NCBI RefSeq assembly: GCF_030056795.1 | Contig: NZ_JASHKQ010000001.1 | Coordinates: 1,054,001 to 1,118,000 of the forward strand | Source: Rhodococcus sp. IEGM 1381 | Lineage (GTDB): Bacteria; Actinomycetota; Actinomycetes; Mycobacteriales; Mycobacteriaceae | Direction: 5' to 3' | DNA: 64,000 nucleotides | Shown: positions 19,063 through 29,703 of the stretch, one piece after another | Layout: each line of letters opens with the position of its first letter | How positions within the stretch are numbered: position 1 is the stretch's first letter | Notes under the pieces: generated by a model | What the model was told of the DNA's origin: nothing | What the model saw: the letters and a program-made list of their open reading frames with translations, nothing else | Databases searched by the model: none | Position numbers and translations under genes: made by a program

Positions 19063-19076
19063 TTACCGTGGAGTAA
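19063..19076 (+). promoter_or_regulatory. Palindromic operator at the tetR promoter (TTAC-N6-GTAA)
   Basis: TTACCGTGGAGTAA lies 31 bases before the tetR ATG. It matches sites at 22088-22101 and 28820-28833 beside the lipid genes. The position suggests autoregulation by the TetR protein. An overlapping GGTAA-N6-TTACC (19052-19067) may be a second binding register. Confidence 0.6.
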
Positions 19077-19107
19077 CGTCTAGTACTTCGTACGTATTGG
19101 AGGGTCC

Positions 19108-19710
19108 ATGGCTGGCGGCACCAAGAGATTGCCCCGCGCCGTCCGTGAGCAGCAGATGCTCGACGCGGCGGTGGATGTGTTCTCCGACAACGGTTTTCAC
19201 GAGACATCGATGGATTCGATCGCCAAGAAGGCGGCCATCTCCAAGCCGATGTTGTATCTGTACTACGGGTCGAAGGACGAGTTGTTCGCCGCGTGCATCC
19301 ATCGTGAGGGCGTCAAATTCATCGAAGCGTTGACGCCGGCCGCAGACCCGACGCTGACGCCGCGCGAGCAGTTGCGCAAAGCGCTGATCGGCTTCCTCGG
19401 ATTCGTCGGCGAGAACCGGAAGTCGTGGATGGTGCTCTACCGCCAGGCCATCGGCCAGCAGGCCTTCGCCTCACAGGTGCAGAGCAGCCGCGATCGGTTG
19501 ATCGAACTGACGGCGGGTTTGCTGGCGATGAGCACCAGGGACCCGGAGCAGTCACACAATTTCGGGTTGATGGCCGTCGCGTTGGTCGGTGCAGGCGAGG
19601 CCGTGGCCGACAGGGTGGCAGGCGGCGAAATCGAGGTCGACGCGGCTGCCGATCTCCTGGAAAATCTGGCGTGGCGCGGCCTGGCCGGCAAGAAGACCGC
19701 CGCAACCTAG
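19108..19710 (+). CDS. TetR-family transcriptional regulator (Rv0238-like)
   Basis: A 200-residue regulator. The N-terminal helix-turn-helix spans about 13-58: MLDAAVDVFSDNGFHETSMD, then SIAKKAAISKPMLYLYYGSK, which includes the canonical TetR recognition helix. The C-terminal 140 residues form the ligand-binding domain. GGAGGG precedes the ATG. It stands beside htdX, fabG4 and fadA2, and its promoter carries a palindrome also found at the fabG4/fadA2 and fadE5 promoters. It is therefore a good candidate repressor of this lipid set, perhaps responding to an acyl-CoA. Family and fold are clear; the regulon is inferred. Confidence 0.9.
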   Translation: MAGGTKRLPRAVREQQMLDAAVDVFSDNGFHETSMDSIAKKAAISKPMLYLYYGSKDELFAACIHREGVKFIEALTPAADPTLTPREQLRKALIGFLGFVGENRKSWMVLYRQAIGQQAFASQVQSSRDRLIELTAGLLAMSTRDPEQSHNFGLMAVALVGAGEAVADRVAGGEIEVDAAADLLENLAWRGLAGKKTAAT

Positions 19711-19720
19711 CTGGCCCCCC

Positions 19721-19747
19721 GGGTCGTTCCGCAGGCTCCACTCCTGC
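19721..19747 (+). repeat. Dispersed 27-bp repeat, copy 2
   Basis: Identical to 10251-10277. It begins 10 bases after the tetR stop and ends 7 bases before the 18-bp inverted repeat at 19755. Confidence 0.8.
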
Positions 19748-19754
19748 TGTCCAA

Positions 19755-19802
19755 CTCGAAGTTATGGACGAAAATCCAAGGAAATTCGTCCATAACTTCG
19801 AG
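19755..19802. terminator. Perfect 18-bp inverted repeat between convergent tetR and htdX
   Basis: The arms 19755-19772 and 19785-19802 are exact reverse complements with a 12-base loop. The arm contains GTTATGGACGAA and is notably less GC-rich than its surroundings. Lying between two convergent genes, it most likely ends transcription in both directions, though no T run is present. Confidence 0.6.
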
Positions 19803-19818
19803 CTCGGCGAAACAACAG

Positions 19819-20676
19819 CTACCGCAGCGTTCCCGTCAGATGCGGGTAGCCCTTCTTCGGGTTCTTCAGCGACAGGTCCCAGCCGGTACCGACGGCCTCG
19901 GCGTAGGCGTTGATCGTCGCGGGCAGGATGATCGGCTTACCGAAGCGGATGCTGTAGTTCACGGCCTCCGGGATTCGACCCTCGACGGTCTGCAGTACTG
20001 CTGCCGCACTCCACATTCCGTGCGCGATGGTCTTCGGGAAGCCGAATGCCTTTGCGCCGAGCGAGGATACGTGGATCGGGTTGCGGTCTCCGGAGATGGC
20101 CGCATACCGGCTGATGATCCGCTGATCGACGCGCAGGGTGCGGGTCGGGGGCGGCGGAACCTCGTCTGCAGGCGGTGTTTCGCGGGGTCCACCCGACAGC
20201 GAGGTCTTCTGCAGGCTCAGGAAGCTCGAGGTCTGCTTCCAGACCAGCTCGCGTCCTACCTTGACCTCGCTGATCAGGTCCACCAGCAGGCCCTTGCGGT
20301 GCTCGCGCAGGTTCTCCGCGTGCACTCTCACATCCAACGGCTCGGTGGCAGAGATGCCACGGAACTGCTCGATGACGTTCTCGGCGTGCACCGAACCGAT
20401 GGCGGCAAACGGAAAGCCCTTGGAGACCATCAGTTTCATCACTGTCGGGAACACCAGCGTGAACGGGTAGGTCACCGGGAGCTGATCGCCGAATCGCAGA
20501 CCCGTCGCGCGGCAGTACCCGGCGAGGTTGTCGGGGTCCACTCGCAGACCCTTGAGCTCGTACACCGTGCTGGGAACCGAAGACGACCTGGATCCGAAGA
20601 ACGGCAGCGCGCCGAGCACAGCCGAGGTGTAGATGTCGGAGGTCTTCGGCTGCGCGGTGAGCGTGACGGTGCTCAT
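19819..20676 (-). CDS. htdX: MaoC-type (3R)-hydroxyacyl dehydratase HtdX
   Basis: A 285-residue double-hotdog (R)-specific hydratase/dehydratase that interconverts 3-hydroxyacyl and trans-2-enoyl thioesters. The active-site segment in the C-terminal hotdog reads [12 protein letters not shown], with Asp and His in the hydratase-2 spacing, followed by [15 protein letters not shown]. The ATG (20674-20676) overlaps the stop of fabG4 as ATGA, so the two are translationally coupled. The order matches Rv0241c-Rv0242c. With FabG4 it supplies two steps of a fatty acid chain-modifying cycle on CoA or ACP substrates. Confidence 0.92.
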
Positions 20677-22019
20677 GCGCCGAGCAGGCTCTGGCCGCAC
20701 ACGCGCACGACCTGGCCGGTGACGGCGTTGGATGCGGGAGAAGCGAAGTACGAGACCAACTCTGCGACGTCCACGGTCTCGCCGCCCTGCAGCAGCGAGC
20801 TCATGCGTCGTCCGGCCTCGCGGGTGGCGAACGGGATTGCTGCGGTCATCGCGGTTTCTATGAAGCCGGGAGCAACGGCGTTGATCGTGATGTTCTTCTT
20901 CGCCAGCACCGGCGCGGAAGCATGCACCAAGCCGATGACACCGGCCTTGGATGTGCCGTAGTTGGTCTGGCCGCGGTTGCCCGCGATGCCGGCGATCGAG
21001 GAGACGTCGACGACGCGGCCGCCGTCCTTGAGTGCGCCGGAGGCCACCAGTTCGTCGGTGATGCGCTGCGGCGCAGCAAGGTTGACGCCGATGACCGAGT
21101 TCCAGCGGGAGTCGTCCATGTTGGCGAGAGTCTTGTCGCGGGTGATGCCGGCGTTGTGCACGATGATGTCGGCCCCGCCGTGACGCTCCAGGAGGTGCTT
21201 GCTCAGTACCTCTCCCGCGTCGGGGGAGGTGACGTCGAGTGCGAGCGACGTGCCGCCGACCTTGTTGGCCGTCTGCGAGAGTGCCTCTCCGGCAGCGGGA
21301 ATGTCGGCTGCGATGACGGTTGCTCCGTCGCGGGCGAGGACCTCGGCGATGGTGGCGCCGATGCCGCGGGCTGCTCCGGTGACGACGGCTACCTTGCCTG
21401 CGAGCGGCTTGTCCCACGAGGCCGGTGCCTGCGAATCGGCGTCACCGACGGCGATGACCTGGCCGTCGACGAATGCCGACTTGGCCGAGAGGAGGAAGCG
21501 GAGGGTGGATTCGAGGCCGGACAGGCCGGTCGATGCCTTGGGGGAGATGTAGACGAGCTGCGCCGTGGCACCGCGCTTGACCTCTTTGCCGACGCTGCGC
21601 GTGAAGCCTTCGAGGGCGCGCTGAGCGATGTGCTCGTCGACGCTCGAGGTCTCTTCGGGAGTGGTGCCGATGACGACGACGCGAGCCGACGGTGCCAGGT
21701 TGCGGATGACCGGCTGGAAGAACTTGAAGAGCTGCTCGAGCTCGGCGACGTTGCTGATTCCGGTGGCGTCGAATACGAGTCCGCCGTGCTTGTCGTCGTG
21801 CGGCTGCGACTGCGGGTAGTCCGAGAGCAGCTCACGCAGGGGCTCGACGAGGCGGCCGCTGCCACCGATCAGGACCGGGCCGGCCAGTGCGGGCTCACCT
21901 GCCTTGTAACGACGCAGCTTCTCGGGCTGCGGCAGGCCTGCCTGCTTGGCGATGAAAGCTCCCGGCGCGGACGCGAGGAACGTTGAGTAGAGATCTGGGG
22001 CTCCCTTGGAGGCTGCCAC
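20673..22019 (-). CDS. fabG4: 3-oxoacyl reductase FabG4 (two-domain SDR)
   Basis: A 448-residue NAD(P)H-dependent 3-ketoacyl reductase of the high-molecular-weight FabG type. An N-terminal flavodoxin-like domain (about 1-200) precedes an SDR Rossmann domain with [20 protein letters not shown], Ser in [10 protein letters not shown], and the catalytic YGTSK. I chose the GTG at 22019 because AAAGG lies 7 bases upstream; an ATG at 22034 would add 5 residues but lacks a ribosome site. It is divergent from fadA2 across a region holding a TTAC-N6-GTAA palindrome, and coupled to htdX. It corresponds to Rv0242c; mycobacterial FabG4 prefers NADH and long acyl-CoAs. Confidence 0.93.
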
Positions 22020-22087
22020 TGTCGTACCTTTCATTCAGCGCTGCTCGCTCGAGGAGCAAGGCGCACGACCGGGTGTCGACAACCAAC

Positions 22088-22101
22088 TTACTCGCCAGTA
22101 A
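22088..22101. promoter_or_regulatory. Palindromic operator between fabG4 and fadA2
   Basis: TTACTCGCCAGTAA is a TTAC-N6-GTAA palindrome in the 139-base divergent region. It lies 57 bases from the fadA2 GTG and 68 from the fabG4 GTG, so one site could control both directions. It matches the site at the tetR promoter. Confidence 0.65.
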
Positions 22102-22158
22102 GATGAAACTCCACCAGGGCCATTCCCCACATGCTGGGGACGATGTTTGGAGACGTCA

Positions 22159-23457
22159 GTGACAAGCAAGCAGCTACGACCGGTCGCAATCGTCGGTGGC
22201 AACCGCATTCCGTTCGCGCGTTCGGACAAGAAGTACGCGCTGGCCTCCAACCAGGACATGCTCACTGCCACCATCGACGGTCTCGTGTCGCGATTCGGTC
22301 TGCAGGGCGAGCGCCTCGGTCTCGTCGCCGCCGGTGCCGTGCTCAAGCATTCGCGCGATTTCAACCTCACCCGCGAGGTCGTTCTCGGTAGCGCGCTGAG
22401 CCCGTACACCCCGGCCTTCGACATTCAGCAGGCCTGCGGCACCGGCCTGCAGTCGATCATCGCGGTCGGCGACGCCATCGCGTCGGGTCGTATCGATGCA
22501 GGTATCGGTGGCGGTGTCGACACCACGTCCGACGCCCCGATCGGCGTCAACGACGAACTGCGCGAGTTCCTGCTGTCCCTGAACCGGGCCAAGAGCACCG
22601 GCGATCGCATCAAGCTCCTCGGCAACGTCCGTCCCGGCATGCTCGGCATCGAGATCCCGCGCAACGGCGAGCCGCGCACCGGCTTGTCGATGGGCGACCA
22701 CGCCGCCATCACCGCCAAGGAATTCGGCGTCCGCCGCGAGGACCAGGACGAACTGGCCGCAGCGAGCCACCACAATATGGCGGCGGCCTACGACCGCGGT
22801 TTCTTCGACGATCTGGTGACGCCGTTCCTCGGCCTCACACGCGACGACAACCTGCGTCCGGGATCGACCGTCGAGAAGTTGGCCACGCTCAAGCCGGTCT
22901 TCGGAACCAGGCTGGGCGACGCCACCATGACGGCCGGTAACTCGACGCCGCTCACCGACGGCGCGTCGGCTGCCCTGCTGTCGAGCGACGAGTGGGCTGC
23001 CGAGCGCAACCTCCCGGTGCTCGCGCACCTGGTCGATTCCGAGACCGCAGCGGTCGACTACGTTCACGGCAACAGCTCGTTCAAGGACGGCCTGCTGATG
23101 GCTCCGACCTACGCGATTCCGCGTCTGCTCGCGCGCAACGGCCTGACGCTGCAGGATTTCGACTACTACGAGATCCACGAGGCGTTCGCCTCGGTGGTGC
23201 TCGCAACTCTGCAGGCATTCGAGAGCGACGAGTACTGCAAGGAGCGTCTGGGTCTCGACGGCGCGCTCGGCTCCATCGATCGCAGCAAGCTCAACGTCAA
23301 CGGATCCTCGCTCGCTGCGGGCCACCCGTTCGCCGCGACCGGCGGACGCATCGTGGCGTCGTTGGCGAAGATGCTGGCCGAGAAGGGCTCGGGCCGTGGC
23401 CTGATCTCGATCTGCGCGGCCGGTGGCCAGGGCGTCACGGCCATCATCGAGCGCTGA
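22159..23457 (+). CDS. fadA2: Acetyl-CoA acetyltransferase FadA2 (thiolase)
   Basis: A 432-residue thiolase that cleaves 3-ketoacyl-CoA to acetyl-CoA and shortened acyl-CoA, or runs in reverse. The acylated Cys is residue 93 in FDIQQACGTGLQ. HEAFAS and NGSSLAAGHPFAATGGR provide the His residues, and the second Cys is in SICAAGGQG in place of the usual CIGGGQG. I chose the GTG at 22159 with GGAG 8 bases upstream; a TTG at 22147 is the alternative. It corresponds to Rv0243 and shares a promoter region with fabG4-htdX. Confidence 0.94.
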   Translation: MTSKQLRPVAIVGGNRIPFARSDKKYALASNQDMLTATIDGLVSRFGLQGERLGLVAAGAVLKHSRDFNLTREVVLGSALSPYTPAFDIQQACGTGLQSIIAVGDAIASGRIDAGIGGGVDTTSDAPIGVNDELREFLLSLNRAKSTGDRIKLLGNVRPGMLGIEIPRNGEPRTGLSMGDHAAITAKEFGVRREDQDELAAASHHNMAAAYDRGFFDDLVTPFLGLTRDDNLRPGSTVEKLATLKPVFGTRLGDATMTAGNSTPLTDGASAALLSSDEWAAERNLPVLAHLVDSETAAVDYVHGNSSFKDGLLMAPTYAIPRLLARNGLTLQDFDYYEIHEAFASVVLATLQAFESDEYCKERLGLDGALGSIDRSKLNVNGSSLAAGHPFAATGGRIVASLAKMLAEKGSGRGLISICAAGGQGVTAIIER

Positions 23458-23552
23458 TCACTGCAGCTTCGGCTGCTCACTATTCGGGGGAACACAGGGT
23501 CGGCGGATCCGGTAATCGAGGGGTTTTCGGATCTGCCGTCCACTACGTGAAA

Positions 23553-23583
23553 AAGGGCACGCAGAGTTTCTCTGTGTGCCCTT
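23553..23583 (+). terminator. Terminator of fadA2
   Basis: AAGGGCACGCAGAG pairs with the right arm 23570-23583 through 14 bp with one G-T pair around a TTT loop. It starts 95 bases after the fadA2 stop. Confidence 0.7.
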
Positions 23584-23659
23584 AGTGTGTCCGAACGCGC
23601 CACGATTAATCCGTTTGAATGAATTGACGAGACGATTTTTTGCTCGGTGTAACGCACAG

Positions 23660-23740
23660 TCGAAAAGTGCATATATTCCAGTTGGCTCCGTGCTGCTGCC
23701 TGACCCCCGACCCGGCAGCAGCGCGGAGCCTCTTTCGTTC
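23660..23740 (+). ncRNA. Putative small RNA at the F6 sRNA location
   Basis: A 17-bp stem (23684-23700 with 23714-23730, one G-T pair) with a C-rich 12-base loop is followed by the T-rich TCTTTCGTT, a typical intrinsic terminator. No plus-strand gene ends just upstream, since the fadA2 terminator lies about 100 bases earlier. A promoter-like TTGACG (23624-23629) and TGTAAC (23648-23653), spacing 18, would start an RNA near 23660. A second -10-like TATATT (23672-23677) would start it at the stem itself. In M. tuberculosis the SigF-dependent sRNA F6 lies between fadA2 and fadE5. Homology is inferred from location and form, not from alignment. Confidence 0.5.
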
Positions 23741-23751
23741 GGATACCGAAC
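23737..23751. promoter_or_regulatory. Short palindrome upstream of the VanW gene
   Basis: GTTCGG-ATA-CCGAAC is a perfect 6-bp inverted repeat with a 3-base spacer, 105 bases before the VanW GTG. It could be an operator; no binding protein is suggested by the motif. Confidence 0.35.
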
Positions 23752-23855
23752 ATCGCAGAGTGAGCGTCGCCGTTCGGTTTGCGTAAGCTCGTGCGCGGGG
23801 TACTCCGTGCCACGGGTGGAACTTTCATCGAACGGTGGTCCTGGAAGGGTCGAAC

Positions 23856-26090
23856 GTGAGCGAGGGCAAGAGTAGGTCGGGCGACGCTCCGAAGGGCGAC
23901 GAGCCCCATCCCGACATACCGCCGTACGACGCTCCCACCGAGACGTTCGGAGCTGTCGGGAACGCGGCCGACGCATCGAAGCATGCGTCCGAGGCCGATC
24001 GTCCGTCCGACGACGCGCACGTAGACCGTGTGGTCGAAGTCGACGGCACGGACGCCGCAGAATCAACGGTTCACGAACCCTGGATCACAGATTTCGCCAC
24101 CACTGATTTCGACACCACTGATTCCGACAGCACGGAGGTCGTCGAATCTGCCGGTCCGCCGGACGCAGTCGAATCCGATTCGGCGACGTCGACCCCGCAG
24201 CAGACCCCGGTCGCGGACGAATCTCCTACCGTGGCACAGTCCGTCGTTCCTGGGCAGCCTGTTGTTGCTGAGCTGCCCATCATTGCCGAGCAGCCCAAGT
24301 CGGCTGGTGAACCGCCCTCGATTCCTCCCAGCGACGGTAGTGCGCAGGCAGATGCAGCCGGCGTCACGCCGCCGTGGCGGAAGATTGCCATCGGCACCGG
24401 TGCAGTGTTCGCTGTCCTCACGCTGCTGTATGCCGCGGATTGGTTCACGTCGAGTGATCGTGTGCCCCGCGGTGTCACGGTTGCCGGAATCGACGTCGGC
24501 GGTAAAGCTCACTCCGACGCCGAAGCCGCCCTGCGATCCGAGCTCGGCCCCCGCGCCGAGCAACCCGTTCAGGTCGACGTCGGCGATCGGCAAGTCGAAG
24601 TGCTCCCCGTCGATGCCGGTCTCGGGGTGGATTGGAATGCGACGCTCGACCGCGCGGGATCGCAACCGATCAATCCGATCACCCGGTTGACGTCGTTCTT
24701 CGGTAGCCGCGAGATCGGCGTCGTGTCGACCACGGACGAGCAAGCATTGACCGTCGCCATCGACGGACTCCGCGCTCAGACCGATCGCGCTCCCGTCGAA
24801 GGTGACGTCGTGTTCGACGGTGTCACTCCTGTTGCTGTTGCACCACTGGAGGGTCGGGTTTTGGATGCCGACGGGACGCGTCGAAATCTGCAGACCGAAT
24901 GGGCTTCGGGGTCAGCGGAAGTGGCCTACGAGTCCACCCCCGTCTCGGTGACGCAGGACGCGGTCGACCGAGCCATTGCCGACGTCGCCGCTCCCGCGAC
25001 GTCGGCTCCGGTGATCGTCGCGGGCAGGCAGAACGTCGACGCGACCCTGGCTCCGAATCGCGTGGGTGAGGTTCTGCGCTTCGATCCGGACGGCCAGGGC
25101 GGGCTGACTCCGATCTACGACACCGATGTCGCCGCCGGCATTCTCGCTCCGCAACTCGTGCGCACCGAGGTGCCGCCGAAGGACGCGTCGTTCACGTTTT
25201 CCGCAGGTGCGCCGACCGTCGTGCCCGGCGTGATGGGCGAGCTGGTGGAGTGGCGGAAGACTCTCGAGCAGCTGCCTGCATTGCTGTCCGCGGACGGTCC
25301 CCGCACCACCGAGGCGATCTACGAACCGGCTCCGCCCGCACTGACCACCGAAGCTGCGCAGAATCTCGGTGTGCGAGAGGTGATCGCCGAGTACACCACC
25401 GGCGGGTTCGAGTATGCGTCCGGCGTCAACATCGGGCTCACCGCGCAGATCGTCAACGGTGCGCTCGTGAAGCCGAAAGAGACGTTCTCGCTCAACGGAT
25501 ACACCGGTCCACGAGGTACTGCGCAGGGTTTCGTCGAGTCGGGGATCATCGACAACGGCAGACCCGATCGCGCCGTCGGCGGTGGCATCAGCCAGTTCGC
25601 GACGACGCTGTACAACGCGTCCTACTTCGCCGGTATGGAAGACACCGACCACACCGAGCACAGCTACTACATCAGCCGGTATCCCGAGGCCCGCGAGGCG
25701 ACTGTCTTCGAGGGTGCAATCGACCTGAAGTTCACCAATCCCAATGACACCGGAGTCGTGATCGAATCGTTCGCCGATTCGTCCAGCGTCACCGTTCGAC
25801 TGTGGGGCACGAAGACCGTCGACGTCGAATCCATTACCGGGTCGCGAACCAACCCCACTTCACCCAACACGGTGACGCTGCCCGCCGGTGCAGGCTGTGT
25901 CGCATCAGGTGGAGGACCGGGATTCACGGCCAGCGACACCAAGGTGATCAGCGACGCCGCGTCGAACAGGGAATTGTCGCGGAACACCAGAACGGTGAAG
26001 TACGACCCGATTCCGATCGTGAAATGCGTCCAGCCCGACCGCCCGGACCCTTCGCCGGCACCTCGACCCGAACCCGAGCCGGATGAGTGA
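23856..26090 (+). CDS. VanW-family envelope protein with PG_binding_4-like repeats
   Basis: A 744-residue type II membrane protein. Residues 1-170 are cytoplasmic, acidic, low-complexity and rich in Thr, Asp, Ser and Pro. One helix (about 176-195, IAIGTGAVFAVLTLLYAADW) leads to an extracytoplasmic part. It begins GVTVAGIDVGGKAHSDAEAA and holds two modules of the type seen in putative peptidoglycan-binding repeats. The VanW domain follows from about 505, with KETFSLNGYTGPR, DRAVGGGISQFATTLYNAS and the His-rich TDHTEHSYYISRYPEARE. The tail has two Cys and ends Pro/Glu-rich. The GTG at 23856 has GGAAGGG upstream. VanW's biochemical role is not established; cell-wall binding is likely. Confidence 0.88.
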   Translation: MSEGKSRSGDAPKGDEPHPDIPPYDAPTETFGAVGNAADASKHASEADRPSDDAHVDRVVEVDGTDAAESTVHEPWITDFATTDFDTTDSDSTEVVESAGPPDAVESDSATSTPQQTPVADESPTVAQSVVPGQPVVAELPIIAEQPKSAGEPPSIPPSDGSAQADAAGVTPPWRKIAIGTGAVFAVLTLLYAADWFTSSDRVPRGVTVAGIDVGGKAHSDAEAALRSELGPRAEQPVQVDVGDRQVEVLPVDAGLGVDWNATLDRAGSQPINPITRLTSFFGSREIGVVSTTDEQALTVAIDGLRAQTDRAPVEGDVVFDGVTPVAVAPLEGRVLDADGTRRNLQTEWASGSAEVAYESTPVSVTQDAVDRAIADVAAPATSAPVIVAGRQNVDATLAPNRVGEVLRFDPDGQGGLTPIYDTDVAAGILAPQLVRTEVPPKDASFTFSAGAPTVVPGVMGELVEWRKTLEQLPALLSADGPRTTEAIYEPAPPALTTEAAQNLGVREVIAEYTTGGFEYASGVNIGLTAQIVNGALVKPKETFSLNGYTGPRGTAQGFVESGIIDNGRPDRAVGGGISQFATTLYNASYFAGMEDTDHTEHSYYISRYPEAREATVFEGAIDLKFTNPNDTGVVIESFADSSSVTVRLWGTKTVDVESITGSRTNPTSPNTVTLPAGAGCVASGGGPGFTASDTKVISDAASNRELSRNTRTVKYDPIPIVKCVQPDRPDPSPAPRPEPEPDE

Positions 26091-26170
26091 CGCCCGAGCT
26101 GCAAGGACACAGTTCGAATCACCTCGAGTCGGACTGTGGCGTCGACGCCCGATCGGGTGTTTGCTTGTAA

Positions 26171-26752
<582 letters not shown>

Positions 26753-26882
26753 TCTCTGGTTCGTCGGCTTCTCATCCCGCGGTGCGCTCCGTGTCCACAA
26801 TTCGCCTCGCGAGGCGGGATCCCGTCATCGACGGCAAATAGTGGACAGTCACCGCACTTGGCTACACCCAGCACACAAAGAA

Positions 26883-26916
26883 CAACGGCCGCACCCGAGA
26901 ACAGGTGCGGCCGTTG
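26883..26916. terminator. Terminator between flavin reductase and fadE5
   Basis: A perfect 13-bp stem (26883-26895 with 26904-26916) with an 8-base loop lies 14 bases beyond the fadE5 stop. Convergent genes flank it, so it may act on both strands. Confidence 0.8.
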
Positions 26917-26929
26917 CAGTGTCAGTGGA

Positions 26930-28765
26930 TCAGAACGCTGCTTCGTCGAGTTCCATGATGTCGTTGTCGATGTTGGTAAGGATTGCTCGCGTCGCGGTGA
27001 GCTGCGGGAGGATGTTCTTGGCGAAGAACGAGGCCACTGCGACCTTGCCTTCGTAGAACGCCTTGTCCTTGCCCTCTGCACCGTTGTCGAGTGCGGCGAT
27101 GGCGATTTCGGACTGACGCAGCAGCAGCCAGCCGATGAGCAGGTCGCCGAAGCCCATGAGGAAGCGCACCGATGCCAGGCCGATCTTGTACAGCTCGGTG
27201 GGCTGGTCCTGTGCGCCCATGAGGTGCTGGGTCATCGAGGTGACGATGGCCTGCACGTCTTCGAGGGCGGTGGCCAGCAGTGCGCGTTCGGCCTTGAGGC
27301 GTCCGTTGCCTGCTTCGCTGTCGATGAACGACTTGATCTGTCCGGCAACGTGAGCCAGGGCCACGCCGCGGTCGCGGGCGATCTTGCGGAAGAAGAAGTC
27401 CTGCGCCTGGATGGCGGTGGTTCCTTCGTACAGCGAGTCGATCTTGGCGTCGCGAACGTATTGCTCGATGGGGTAGTCCTGCAGGAAGCCGGAACCACCG
27501 AAGGTCTGCAGCGACTCGGCCAGCACCTGGTAGGCGATTTCCGATCCGACGCCCTTGACGATGGGGAGCAGGAGGTCGTTGACGCGGTATGCGATGTCTG
27601 CGTCGGCGTCCGAAACCTGCTTGGCGGTGACCGGATCCTGGTGTGCGGCGGTGTAGAGGTACACCGCGCGCAGGCCCTCCGAGTAGGCCTTCTGCATCAT
27701 CAGGCTGCGGCGCACGTCGGGGTGGTGGGTGATGGTGACGCGGGGTGCGGCCTTGTCGGTCATTTGCGTCAGGTCTGCGCCCTGGACGCGCTCCTTGGCG
27801 TACCCGAGTGCGTTGAGGTAGCCGGTGGAGAGGGTGCCGATTGCCTTGGTGCCGACCATCATTCGAGCGTGCTCGATGACGTCGAACATCTGCGCGATGC
27901 CCTTGTGAACCTCGCCGACGAGCCAGCCCTTGGCAGGGACGCCGTGGCCACCGAAGGTGAGCTCACAGGTGGCCGAGGCCTTGAGGCCCATCTTGTGCTC
28001 GACGCCGGTGACGAAGACGCCATTGCGCTCGCCCGGTTCGCCCTTCTCGAAGTCGAAGTGGGTGGCGGGGACGAAGAACAGGCTCAGGCCCTTGGTGCCC
28101 GGTCCGGCACCTTCGGGACGCGCTAGTACGAGGTGGAAGATGTTCTCGAACAGGTCGTCCGAAACGGCGGAGGTGATGAAGCGTTTGACGCCTTCGATGT
28201 GCCAGGAGCCGTCGTCCTGCTTGATCGCTTTGGTACGGCCTGCGCCCACGTCGGATCCGGCGTCGGGCTCGGTGAGCACCATCGTGGCACCCCAGCCGCG
28301 CTGGACGATGACCTTCGCCCATTCCTTCTGCTCATCGGTTCCGTTGTGGAACAAGATGTTTGCGAAGCCGGGCCCCGCGTTGTACATGAATGCTGCGGGC
28401 TGAGAACCGAGGAGCATCTCGTTGATACCCCACAGGAGGTTGCGAGGCGCTGCCATGCCGCCGAGTTCCTCGTCGAGGCCGACGCGCCACCACTCACCGT
28501 CGTAGAGCGCCTTGAACGACTTCTTGAAGGAGTCGGGCAGCTTCAGGCTGTGGGTTTCCGGATCGAAGACGGGCGGGTTGCGGTCCGTGTCCGCGAAGGA
28601 CTCGGCCAGCGGTCCCTCGGCCAGGCGAACGACCTCGCGCAACATGTCGCGGGCCACCTCGCCGTCCATGTCTCCGAAATTGTCGCCTTCGAGTGTCTCG
28701 TCGAGTCCGAAAAGCTCGAAGAGGTTGAACTCGAGGTCCCGAAGGTTGCTCTTGTAATGGCCCAT
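26930..28765 (-). CDS. fadE5: Acyl-CoA dehydrogenase FadE5
   Basis: An FAD-dependent acyl-CoA dehydrogenase of 611 residues, first step of beta-oxidation, with broad chain-length use in mycobacteria. The catalytic Glu is residue 447 in [14 protein letters not shown], the same number as reported for M. tuberculosis FadE5. Other family segments include [18 protein letters not shown] (FAD and substrate), [18 protein letters not shown] and [13 protein letters not shown]. The extra N-terminal and C-terminal parts fit the long FadE5 subclass. Its promoter region carries the TTAC-N6-GTA(A/G) palindrome shared with tetR and fabG4/fadA2. It corresponds to Rv0244c. Confidence 0.95.
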
Positions 28766-28819
28766 TGCTCGTTCGCTCTCCAGTCGGTGGTGCGGTCTCG
28801 TGAGTACCGCCCAAGTTAG

Positions 28820-28833
28820 CTACTCGTCGGTAA
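28820..28833 (-). promoter_or_regulatory. Palindromic operator upstream of fadE5
   Basis: Read on the minus strand TTACCGACGAGTAG lies 54 bases before the fadE5 ATG, in the 79-base gap after the upstream methyltransferase gene. It differs from the perfect palindrome at one base. A further GGTAAC/GTTACC pair (28829-28849) overlaps it. Confidence 0.6.
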
Positions 28834-28844
28834 CTTAAGGGATG

Positions 28845-29468
28845 TTACCCCCGATCCGTGTTGCTGCCAAGGGCGGACCTACTCGCCAGTAGCAATGCGT
28901 CGATCGCAGTGCCGCCGCTCACGTCCCGATACCGATTCTCGGCGGTCACAATGGTCAGGCAGGAGTCGATGTCGGACACCAAATCCTTTGGCGTGTAGAG
29001 GATTTCGATCTCCTGGGGTCCTCCGGCTCCGGACTCGATGTTGGATGTGTGATGCCCGAGAATCATGAGGATTCCATCAGGTTTCAGCGCCGACGCCGCG
29101 GCCGAGACGGCCTTTCGTCGTGCTTCCGGGGGCAAGTGCAGGTAGAACATGAGAACCAGGTCATAGTTGGGTTCCGTTGCCAATTCCGTCACATCGGCAT
29201 GAATCCAGGTGAGGCGCTCGCGCACCGACCTCGGGGCCGAGTCGGCAACGTGACTTGCTCGCGTCAGCGCCACCGAGGAGAAATCGACGGCGTCGACGGT
29301 CCAGCCGCGGGTTGCCAACCAGATGGCGTTTCGACCCTGGCCGGATGCGAGATCCAATGCGCGACCACGCTTCAGCGTCGTCGCCACTTCGACCAAGGTC
29401 GCATTCGGTGCCTCGCCGTACACGAGTTCTCGGCCATCGTATTTGCGATCCCAGTCTGTGGCGTCCAC
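28845..29468 (-). CDS. Class I SAM-dependent methyltransferase
   Basis: About 207 residues. It begins DATDWDRKYDGRELVYGEAP, then has motif I RALDLASGQGRNAIWLATRG, the acidic VDAVDFSS and the post-I WIHADVTEL. This order resembles the tellurite-resistance/UbiE-like small-molecule methyltransferases. I chose the GTG at 29468; the frame is open for 78 more codons upstream but that part has no family character. It precedes fadE5 on the same strand with a 79-base gap holding operator-like sites, so it is probably a separate unit. The substrate is unknown. Confidence 0.8.
   Translation of the reverse strand: MDATDWDRKYDGRELVYGEAPNATLVEVATTLKRGRALDLASGQGRNAIWLATRGWTVDAVDFSSVALTRASHVADSAPRSVRERLTWIHADVTELATEPNYDLVLMFYLHLPPEARRKAVSAAASALKPDGILMILGHHTSNIESGAGGPQEIEILYTPKDLVSDIDSCLTIVTAENRYRDVSGGTAIDALLLASRSALGSNTDRG
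28879..28892 (-). promoter_or_regulatory. Second copy of the operator palindrome, inside the methyltransferase gene
   Basis: CTACTCGCCAGTAG is a perfect 14-bp palindrome differing from the fabG4/fadA2 site only in its outer base pair. It lies 59 bases upstream of the other fadE5 site, within the 3' end of the methyltransferase coding region. Confidence 0.45.
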
Positions 29469-29703
29469 CTCGGGAAGCTTAGTGGGGACTCCTGCAACGT
29501 GGCACGCAGCAGTAGAACGTTGTAGTTCTGGTAGACGGTCGCCAGCAACTACGTATTTGGGCACCCATCGAGAACGAGTGGATGTAATGCGCGTGGGCGT
29601 AGCCGTTGCTGTTGTTGGGCCCGACATGCCTGTGAGCGGGATCGAGGAATTTCTCGTTTTGCCGAATCGGGCGAATGCACCTCGATGTCGTAATCTGGAC
29701 ATT

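Follow-up and report, generated by a model that had tools for sequence, protein, structure and literature searches.

Palindromic sites at fatty-acid degradation genes of Rhodococcus sp. IEGM 1381: probable operators of an FdmR-type TetR repressor, possibly shared with its paralogue FasR

Background

FadR of E. coli and FadR of Bacillus are repressors of beta-oxidation that are released by acyl-coenzyme A (acyl-CoA). E. coli FadR also acts on fatty-acid synthesis; it is a GntR-type protein and does both jobs alone, whereas here two TetR paralogues, FdmR and FasR, are concerned. The primary study of FdmR (Rv0238) in Mycobacterium is reportedly that of Dong et al. 2021 (PNAS 118:e2019305118). The subject of this report is a palindrome, YTACYSNNSRGTAR, that occurs four times in a 64,000-nucleotide stretch of the genome of Rhodococcus sp. 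IEGM 1381 (positions 1,054,001 to 1,118,000 of contig NZ_JASHKQ010000001.1; this whole stretch is called the window), in front of a TetR gene and of the lipid genes around it. The available portion of PMC12403877 identifies Rv0238 as FdmR, a repressor that responds to long-chain acyl-CoA and acts on genes of fatty-acid degradation and modification, and the available portion of PMC9262360 gives fadE5 as a target of FdmR. FasR (Rv3208) is described in the accessible part of PMC7382501 as the activator of fas-acpS and as a long-chain acyl-CoA sensor that binds at the fas-acpS promoter. Both regulators are named in PMC9301340; in PMC8728441 they appear solely in the reference list, and Rv0238 is absent from the 30 motif rows of Table 2 of Balhana et al. 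2015 (PMC4482099) as far as that table was available.

The locus in the window resembles that of FdmR in that its TetR gene lies in the corresponding block and fatty-acid degradation genes, fadE5 among them, are its likely targets; it differs in that the host is a Rhodococcus and the target list, with aceA, glcB, etfBA, etfD and fadAB, is drawn from sequence. FasR is a paralogue of the window TetR with a similar recognition helix, but it is encoded by a separate gene in the source genome and it activates synthesis. Since Rv0238 is already known as FdmR, the system in the window looks like a Rhodococcus member of the FdmR system, with its operator and probable regulon now defined by sequence.

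Results

An earlier sequence-only reading of the window had listed four related sites, and all four are present and exact:

19063..19076, plus strand: predicted palindromic operator 1, TTACCGTGGAGTAA, 31 bp 5' of the tetR ATG (19108)
22088..22101, minus strand: predicted palindromic operator 2, TTACTGGCGAGTAA, between fabG4 and fadA2
28820..28833, minus strand: predicted palindromic operator 3, TTACCGACGAGTAG, 54 bp 5' of fadE5 (28765, minus strand)
28879..28892, minus strand: predicted palindromic operator 4, CTACTGGCGAGTAG, 113 bp 5' of fadE5

When the window was scanned with the pattern YTACYGNSGAGTAR and up to one mismatch was allowed, exactly four matches were obtained, every one of them exact, while 100 dinucleotide shuffles of the window gave a mean of 0.27 and a maximum of 2 matches, none reaching four. 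The element is best given as the symmetric palindrome YTACYSNNSRGTAR, of which the pattern of the earlier reading is one strand. Site 2 is at the mid-point of the 112-bp gap between the divergent fabG4 and fadA2 genes, 53 bp 5' of fabG4 (22034, minus strand) and 45 bp 5' of the called fadA2 start (22147, plus strand). The earlier placement of the sites in the promoters of tetR and of three lipid units therefore fits by position, except that site 4 is not in an empty gap but within the 3' end of the adjoining methyltransferase open reading frame (ORF; 28845-29702, minus strand). The count in the window is by itself circular because the pattern was derived from these same four sites, so an independent test has to come from the remainder of the genome and from further genomes.

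In the 5.5-Mb source genome the strict pattern has 11 sites against none for the reversed control, and the full palindrome has 27 copies against four, which suggests that about four of the 27 are expected by chance. From ORFs and family scans, 19 of the 27 palindromes are 5' of tetR or of acyl-CoA, acetyl-CoA or lipid genes; this classing is our own and a few of the gene names were assigned by eye. These 19 sites precede fdmR itself, fabG4/fadA2, fadE5 (two sites), fadE24-fadE23 (two sites), a fadA3-type thiolase, a fadAB pair, etfBA, a CCG-domain reductase, isocitrate lyase (aceA) with fadB2, malate synthase G (glcB), icd2/gabD1, gabD2 (named by eye) with a secretory lipase, an enoyl-CoA hydratase, pyruvate kinase with an acyl-CoA thioesterase, a DUF4442 gene, an operon for an ABC-ATPase and an MlaE-type permease (L117:4712; C2:40711) and, with an exact palindrome, fabG1-inhA (L129:5750; C29:117749). 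We take the CCG-domain reductase to be EtfD; etfBA and etfD serve electron transfer from acyl-CoA dehydrogenases. A purely local module is ruled out by the 27 copies against four, and the likely target set spans the whole genome beyond the module in the window.

Conservation was followed at orthologous loci. Of 481 confirmed loci with the TetR gene, the best 80 were used, which come from named genomes of Rhodococcus, Rhodococcoides, Prescottella, Antrihabitans, and Nocardia. These loci, 1.55 Mb in all, hold 125 palindromes and no reversed controls. The palindrome is found 5' of fabG4/fadA2 in 67 of 71 testable loci, and at least one is found 5' of fadE5 in 16 of 17, so that the motif is indeed conserved at the orthologous promoters. 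Autoregulation of the TetR gene, which had also been proposed, holds up in part: the site is 5' of tetR in 27 of the 80 loci, that is, in 27 of 33 outside Nocardia and in none of 47 within it, and such autoregulation thus looks lineage-limited. Paired palindromes with a fixed spacing of 27 bp were seen in 11 Nocardia loci (L072, L079-L082, L084, L086, and L090-L093), where they precede fadE5 in ten and the gene is at the locus edge in L092. Pairs 22-23 bp apart were seen in L011, L158, L174, L203, L303, and L309, among them fadE24 and fabG4/fadA2 promoters.

Across 61 genomes of the family, the source included, the strict pattern has 219 sites against 42 for the control. With thresholds of E <=1e-40 for FdmR and E <=1e-60 for FasR, FdmR was found in 53 of these genomes and FasR in 55. 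The 53 genomes with FdmR hold 206 strict sites against 42, and five genomes with neither regulator at these thresholds hold two against none; a sixth such genome, G014 (66% complete; five strict sites against none), was set aside. In those five genomes the palindrome shows no enrichment (9 copies, with 25 for the control), and each of them has some TetR_C_46 protein.

From the strict sites of other genera, 79 were picked by hand for spread among the matches listed. Of these, 31 lie -60 to +400 bp before a relative of a target of the source genome, where a rough estimate from uniform placement is 0.3. By target, they are at fadE5 (12), etfB (5), etfD (3), glcB (3), fadE24 (2), fdmR (2), and one each at aceA, gabD2, DUF4442 and another acyl-CoA dehydrogenase (39% to fadE23). 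Six of the 79 are well within an ORF and eight are without a called gene start nearby, as judged with a crude ORF caller. A family scan was made of 40 neighbouring proteins out of 100 candidates, from loci outside the 31 except L185, whose acyl-CoA dehydrogenase is already counted among them. The 40 include six AMP-binding acyl-/acetyl-CoA synthetases, two biotin carboxylases, and one each of methylmalonyl-CoA mutase, citrate synthase, a succinyl-CoA synthetase type, a succinate dehydrogenase subunit, 2-oxoacid oxidoreductase, 2-oxoacid dehydrogenase E2, enoyl-CoA hydratase, fatty-acid desaturase, and acyl carrier protein (ACP) synthase III. Eight of the 40 had no family match at the threshold, and the rest come from families that are unrelated or of unclear bearing, for example transport, peptidase, adenosine deaminase and trehalose phosphatase.

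By gene order and family scans, the TetR gene of the window sits in an lpqI-htdX-fabG4-fadA2-fadE5 block. The genes concerned are:

19108..19710, plus strand: tetR, predicted FdmR (Rv0238-type) repressor of 200 amino acids with TetR_N and TetR_C_46
19819..20676, minus strand: htdX-like hotdog dehydratase of 285 amino acids, convergent with tetR, with weak HadB-type matches
20673..22034, minus strand: fabG4, 3-oxoacyl-ACP reductase of 453 amino acids (NF006110, 680.9 bits, cut-off 410)
22147..23457, plus strand, start as called: fadA2, acetyl-CoA C-acetyltransferase of 436 amino acids (NF006740, 775.1 bits, cut-off 539)
26930..28765, minus strand: fadE5, acyl-CoA dehydrogenase of 611 amino acids with Acyl-CoA_dh domains and Acyl-CoA_dh_C

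The names htdX and fadE5 are assumed from synteny with M. tuberculosis, where the corresponding block holds Rv0238. The window TetR is 97-99% identical to its counterparts at the nearest Rhodococcus loci. Its best match in the PDB is 3f1b (352.5 bits over residues 1-197), an entry that is listed merely as a TetR-like transcriptional regulator with no function named. The two proteins very probably belong to the same orthologous group, that of FdmR, and 3f1b is then very probably a solved structure of this group. The next matches are 6o6p (79 bits) and 6o6n (77 bits), which we take to be FasR entries. The window TetR is not FasR because it scores only 94.7 bits on the curated FasR model, below the cut-off of 330, and the source genome has a separate FasR (C19:361246) that scores 378.9 bits. 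The recognition helix of the window TetR is at about residues 46-53 (KPMLYLYY) and is invariant in 34 aligned sequences; a predicted structure (mean predicted local distance difference test score 84.1) was used only to place it. Another conceivable owner of the motif, MadR, is ruled out since the MadR motif as given in the accessible part of PMC8872791, TCTGTGxxxxxxxGT, is different.

Discussion

The four palindromes very probably serve as binding sites for a fatty-acid degradation repressor of a type already known. We hold with good confidence that they are the operators of the TetR protein encoded at 19108-19710, which would be a Rhodococcus counterpart of FdmR and would repress the degradation operons. 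A dimer of this protein would bind YTACYSNNSRGTAR over or beside the promoters of its own gene, fabG4-htdX, fadA2, and fadE5. It would bind likewise at about a dozen further operons, those for beta-oxidation, for electron transfer by way of etfBA and etfD, for the glyoxylate shunt (aceA and glcB) and for neighbouring acetyl-CoA metabolism. FdmR would keep all of these low, and long-chain acyl-CoA, on binding to its C-terminal domain, would make the repressor release the DNA. What was observed is the position, palindromy, genome-wide enrichment and conservation of the sites, together with the genes at which they lie; repression and the acyl-CoA response come from print for mycobacteria, and from this likeness we infer binding, repression and the same ligand in Rhodococcus; for release of the window TetR by acyl-CoA it is its relatedness to FasR that speaks. 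The proposal that an Rv0238-like TetR controls the lipid module is thus supported in part, by the conserved sites and by FdmR in print, while the regulator proves to be known already and its target set to be genome-wide. That the palindromes are chance matches picked by eye is a negligible prospect: the pattern was chosen after the sites had been seen, but the enrichment, the gene content and the conservation come from outside the window.

Several observations weigh against the reading of the palindromes as FdmR operators. Eight of the 27 palindromes in the source genome have no clear lipid link. They are at an aldo/keto reductase, at L011:2295 with no assigned gene, and at thioredoxin-reductase-type, carboxylesterase, second TetR, prolyl-oligopeptidase-type, zinc-dehydrogenase/quinone-reductase-type and OsmC-type genes, several of which were named by eye. 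One of the 19 lipid-linked sites precedes a synthesis operon, fabG1-inhA, the fatty-acid elongation operon of mycolic-acid synthesis, and this does not fit a pure degradation regulon. The site 5' of tetR was not found in any of the 47 Nocardia loci, and that of fabG4/fadA2 was not found in four of 71 loci, all of them Rhodococcus (L027-L029 and L039). That the window TetR is the orthologue of Rv0238 is presumed from synteny. Two further points are that the published operator of the paralogue FasR is very similar to the palindrome, and that in two genomes in which no fdmR was detected the same beta-oxidation genes still have exact sites. As a separate observation, the palindrome TTACCGTACGGTAA at L123:5231 (C11:2083230), beside a different TetR gene, is perfectly symmetric and may be the own operator of that regulator.

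The two genomes, G007 (loci L297-L303 and L316) and G037 (loci L304-L312 and L317), both belong to genus g7. They have FasR, and no FdmR match was obtained in them even at E 1e-15. In each of them the aftD-type gene comes next after htdX, and usp, GH3 and fdmR, which lie between these two genes in the window, had no match in this stretch at E 1e-4. The palindrome is nevertheless enriched despite the missing fdmR, with nine copies against two for the control in G007 and ten against three in G037. Seventeen of these 19 (9/9 in G007 and 8/10 in G037) precede fadE5, fabG4/fadA2, etfD, etfB, fadE24, citrate synthase, DUF4442 (in G037) or fasR (in G007). A clean correlation between FdmR and the sites had been expected and it failed for this genus. 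Since genomes without fdmR keep the sites, FdmR is not their sole reader everywhere, and a reading with FasR was therefore considered.

The 25-base oligonucleotide of the M. tuberculosis FasR co-crystal, as given in the available text of PMC7382501, has 11 contiguous bases in common with sites 2 and 4 but just four and five with sites 1 and 3. Because of this resemblance, 30 fas promoters (L250-L279), the best-scoring 30 of 52 fas matches, were examined. The palindrome with up to one mismatch is present in 29 of the 30, exact in seven and one off in 22, with none in the remaining one, whereas 60 shuffles gave a mean of 0.38 promoters and a maximum of two, and the reversed pattern gave none. 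These copies lie about 100-360 bp 5' of the estimated fas start, and 28 of their 35 mismatches are in the outer two positions; 12 of the 35 are pyrimidines at position 13. The fabG4/fadA2 and fadE5 sites, by contrast, are exact in 83 of 88, but the contrast is indicative only because the genomes sampled for the two sets differ. The recognition helices are alike as well, SKPMLYLYYGSK in FdmR and SKPVLYQHFPGK in FasR, and both proteins match TetR_C_46, FdmR with 103.6 bits and FasR weakly with 31.3 bits (cut-off 27).

It is possible, and we propose it tentatively, that FdmR and FasR both read the palindrome, the degradation copies being exact and the fas copy usually one off. The fas promoters, the bases shared with sites 2 and 4, the helices and the 17 palindromes at expected genes in genus g7 all favour such a shared operator. 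The fas promoters of G007 and G037 (221-328 bp, three loci, starts uncertain) go against it: they have no copy within two mismatches, which is at odds with FasR using a single code at both ends in these genomes. A palindrome 5' of fasR occurs in G007 but not in G037, and there is none in the 18-kb stretch around fasR of the source genome. Nor is TetR_C_46 private to FdmR and FasR: six proteins of the source genome are above its cut-off, and in G007 and G037 another protein outscores FasR on it, although FasR is closer to FdmR over its length than that protein is. Moreover, the binding of FasR is described at the fas-acpS promoter in what was accessible of PMC7382501. If the sites belonged to FasR alone and FdmR read something else, the likeness to the FasR oligonucleotide and the persistence of sites in genomes with FasR but no FdmR match would both be accounted for. 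We regard this as very unlikely, for the accessible parts of PMC12403877 and PMC9262360 have FdmR as repressor of degradation genes including fadE5, the site is 5' of fdmR in 27 of 33 non-Nocardia loci, and the surroundings of fasR in the source genome lack the palindrome. FdmR as the repressor acting at the four sites is thus the reading that we prefer, but its sole ownership of them is doubtful, since an almost identical operator may be used by FasR.

A wider form of the shared operator would be that a single operator code serves both FasR and FdmR throughout the mycolate bacteria and that in Segniliparus-type genomes FasR took over the degradation operators, the regulator being swapped and the operator kept. 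The same acyl-CoA signal would then set synthesis and degradation through a common kind of site. We offer this as a speculation that is on the unlikely side.

Conclusions

The regulator FdmR itself is already known; what would be new is that FasR may use its operator as well and that the operators persist in genomes from which fdmR is missing. With the palindrome, the probable operator of a repressor of fatty-acid catabolism can be defined simply by its sequence, and with it comes a list of candidate operons for Rhodococcus, a group that is used in oil and lipid conversion. If FasR does read the same sites, then a single kind of DNA element would link the synthesis of fatty acids to their degradation in mycolate bacteria, and the genus that lacks fdmR would offer a natural experiment in how one regulator replaces another.

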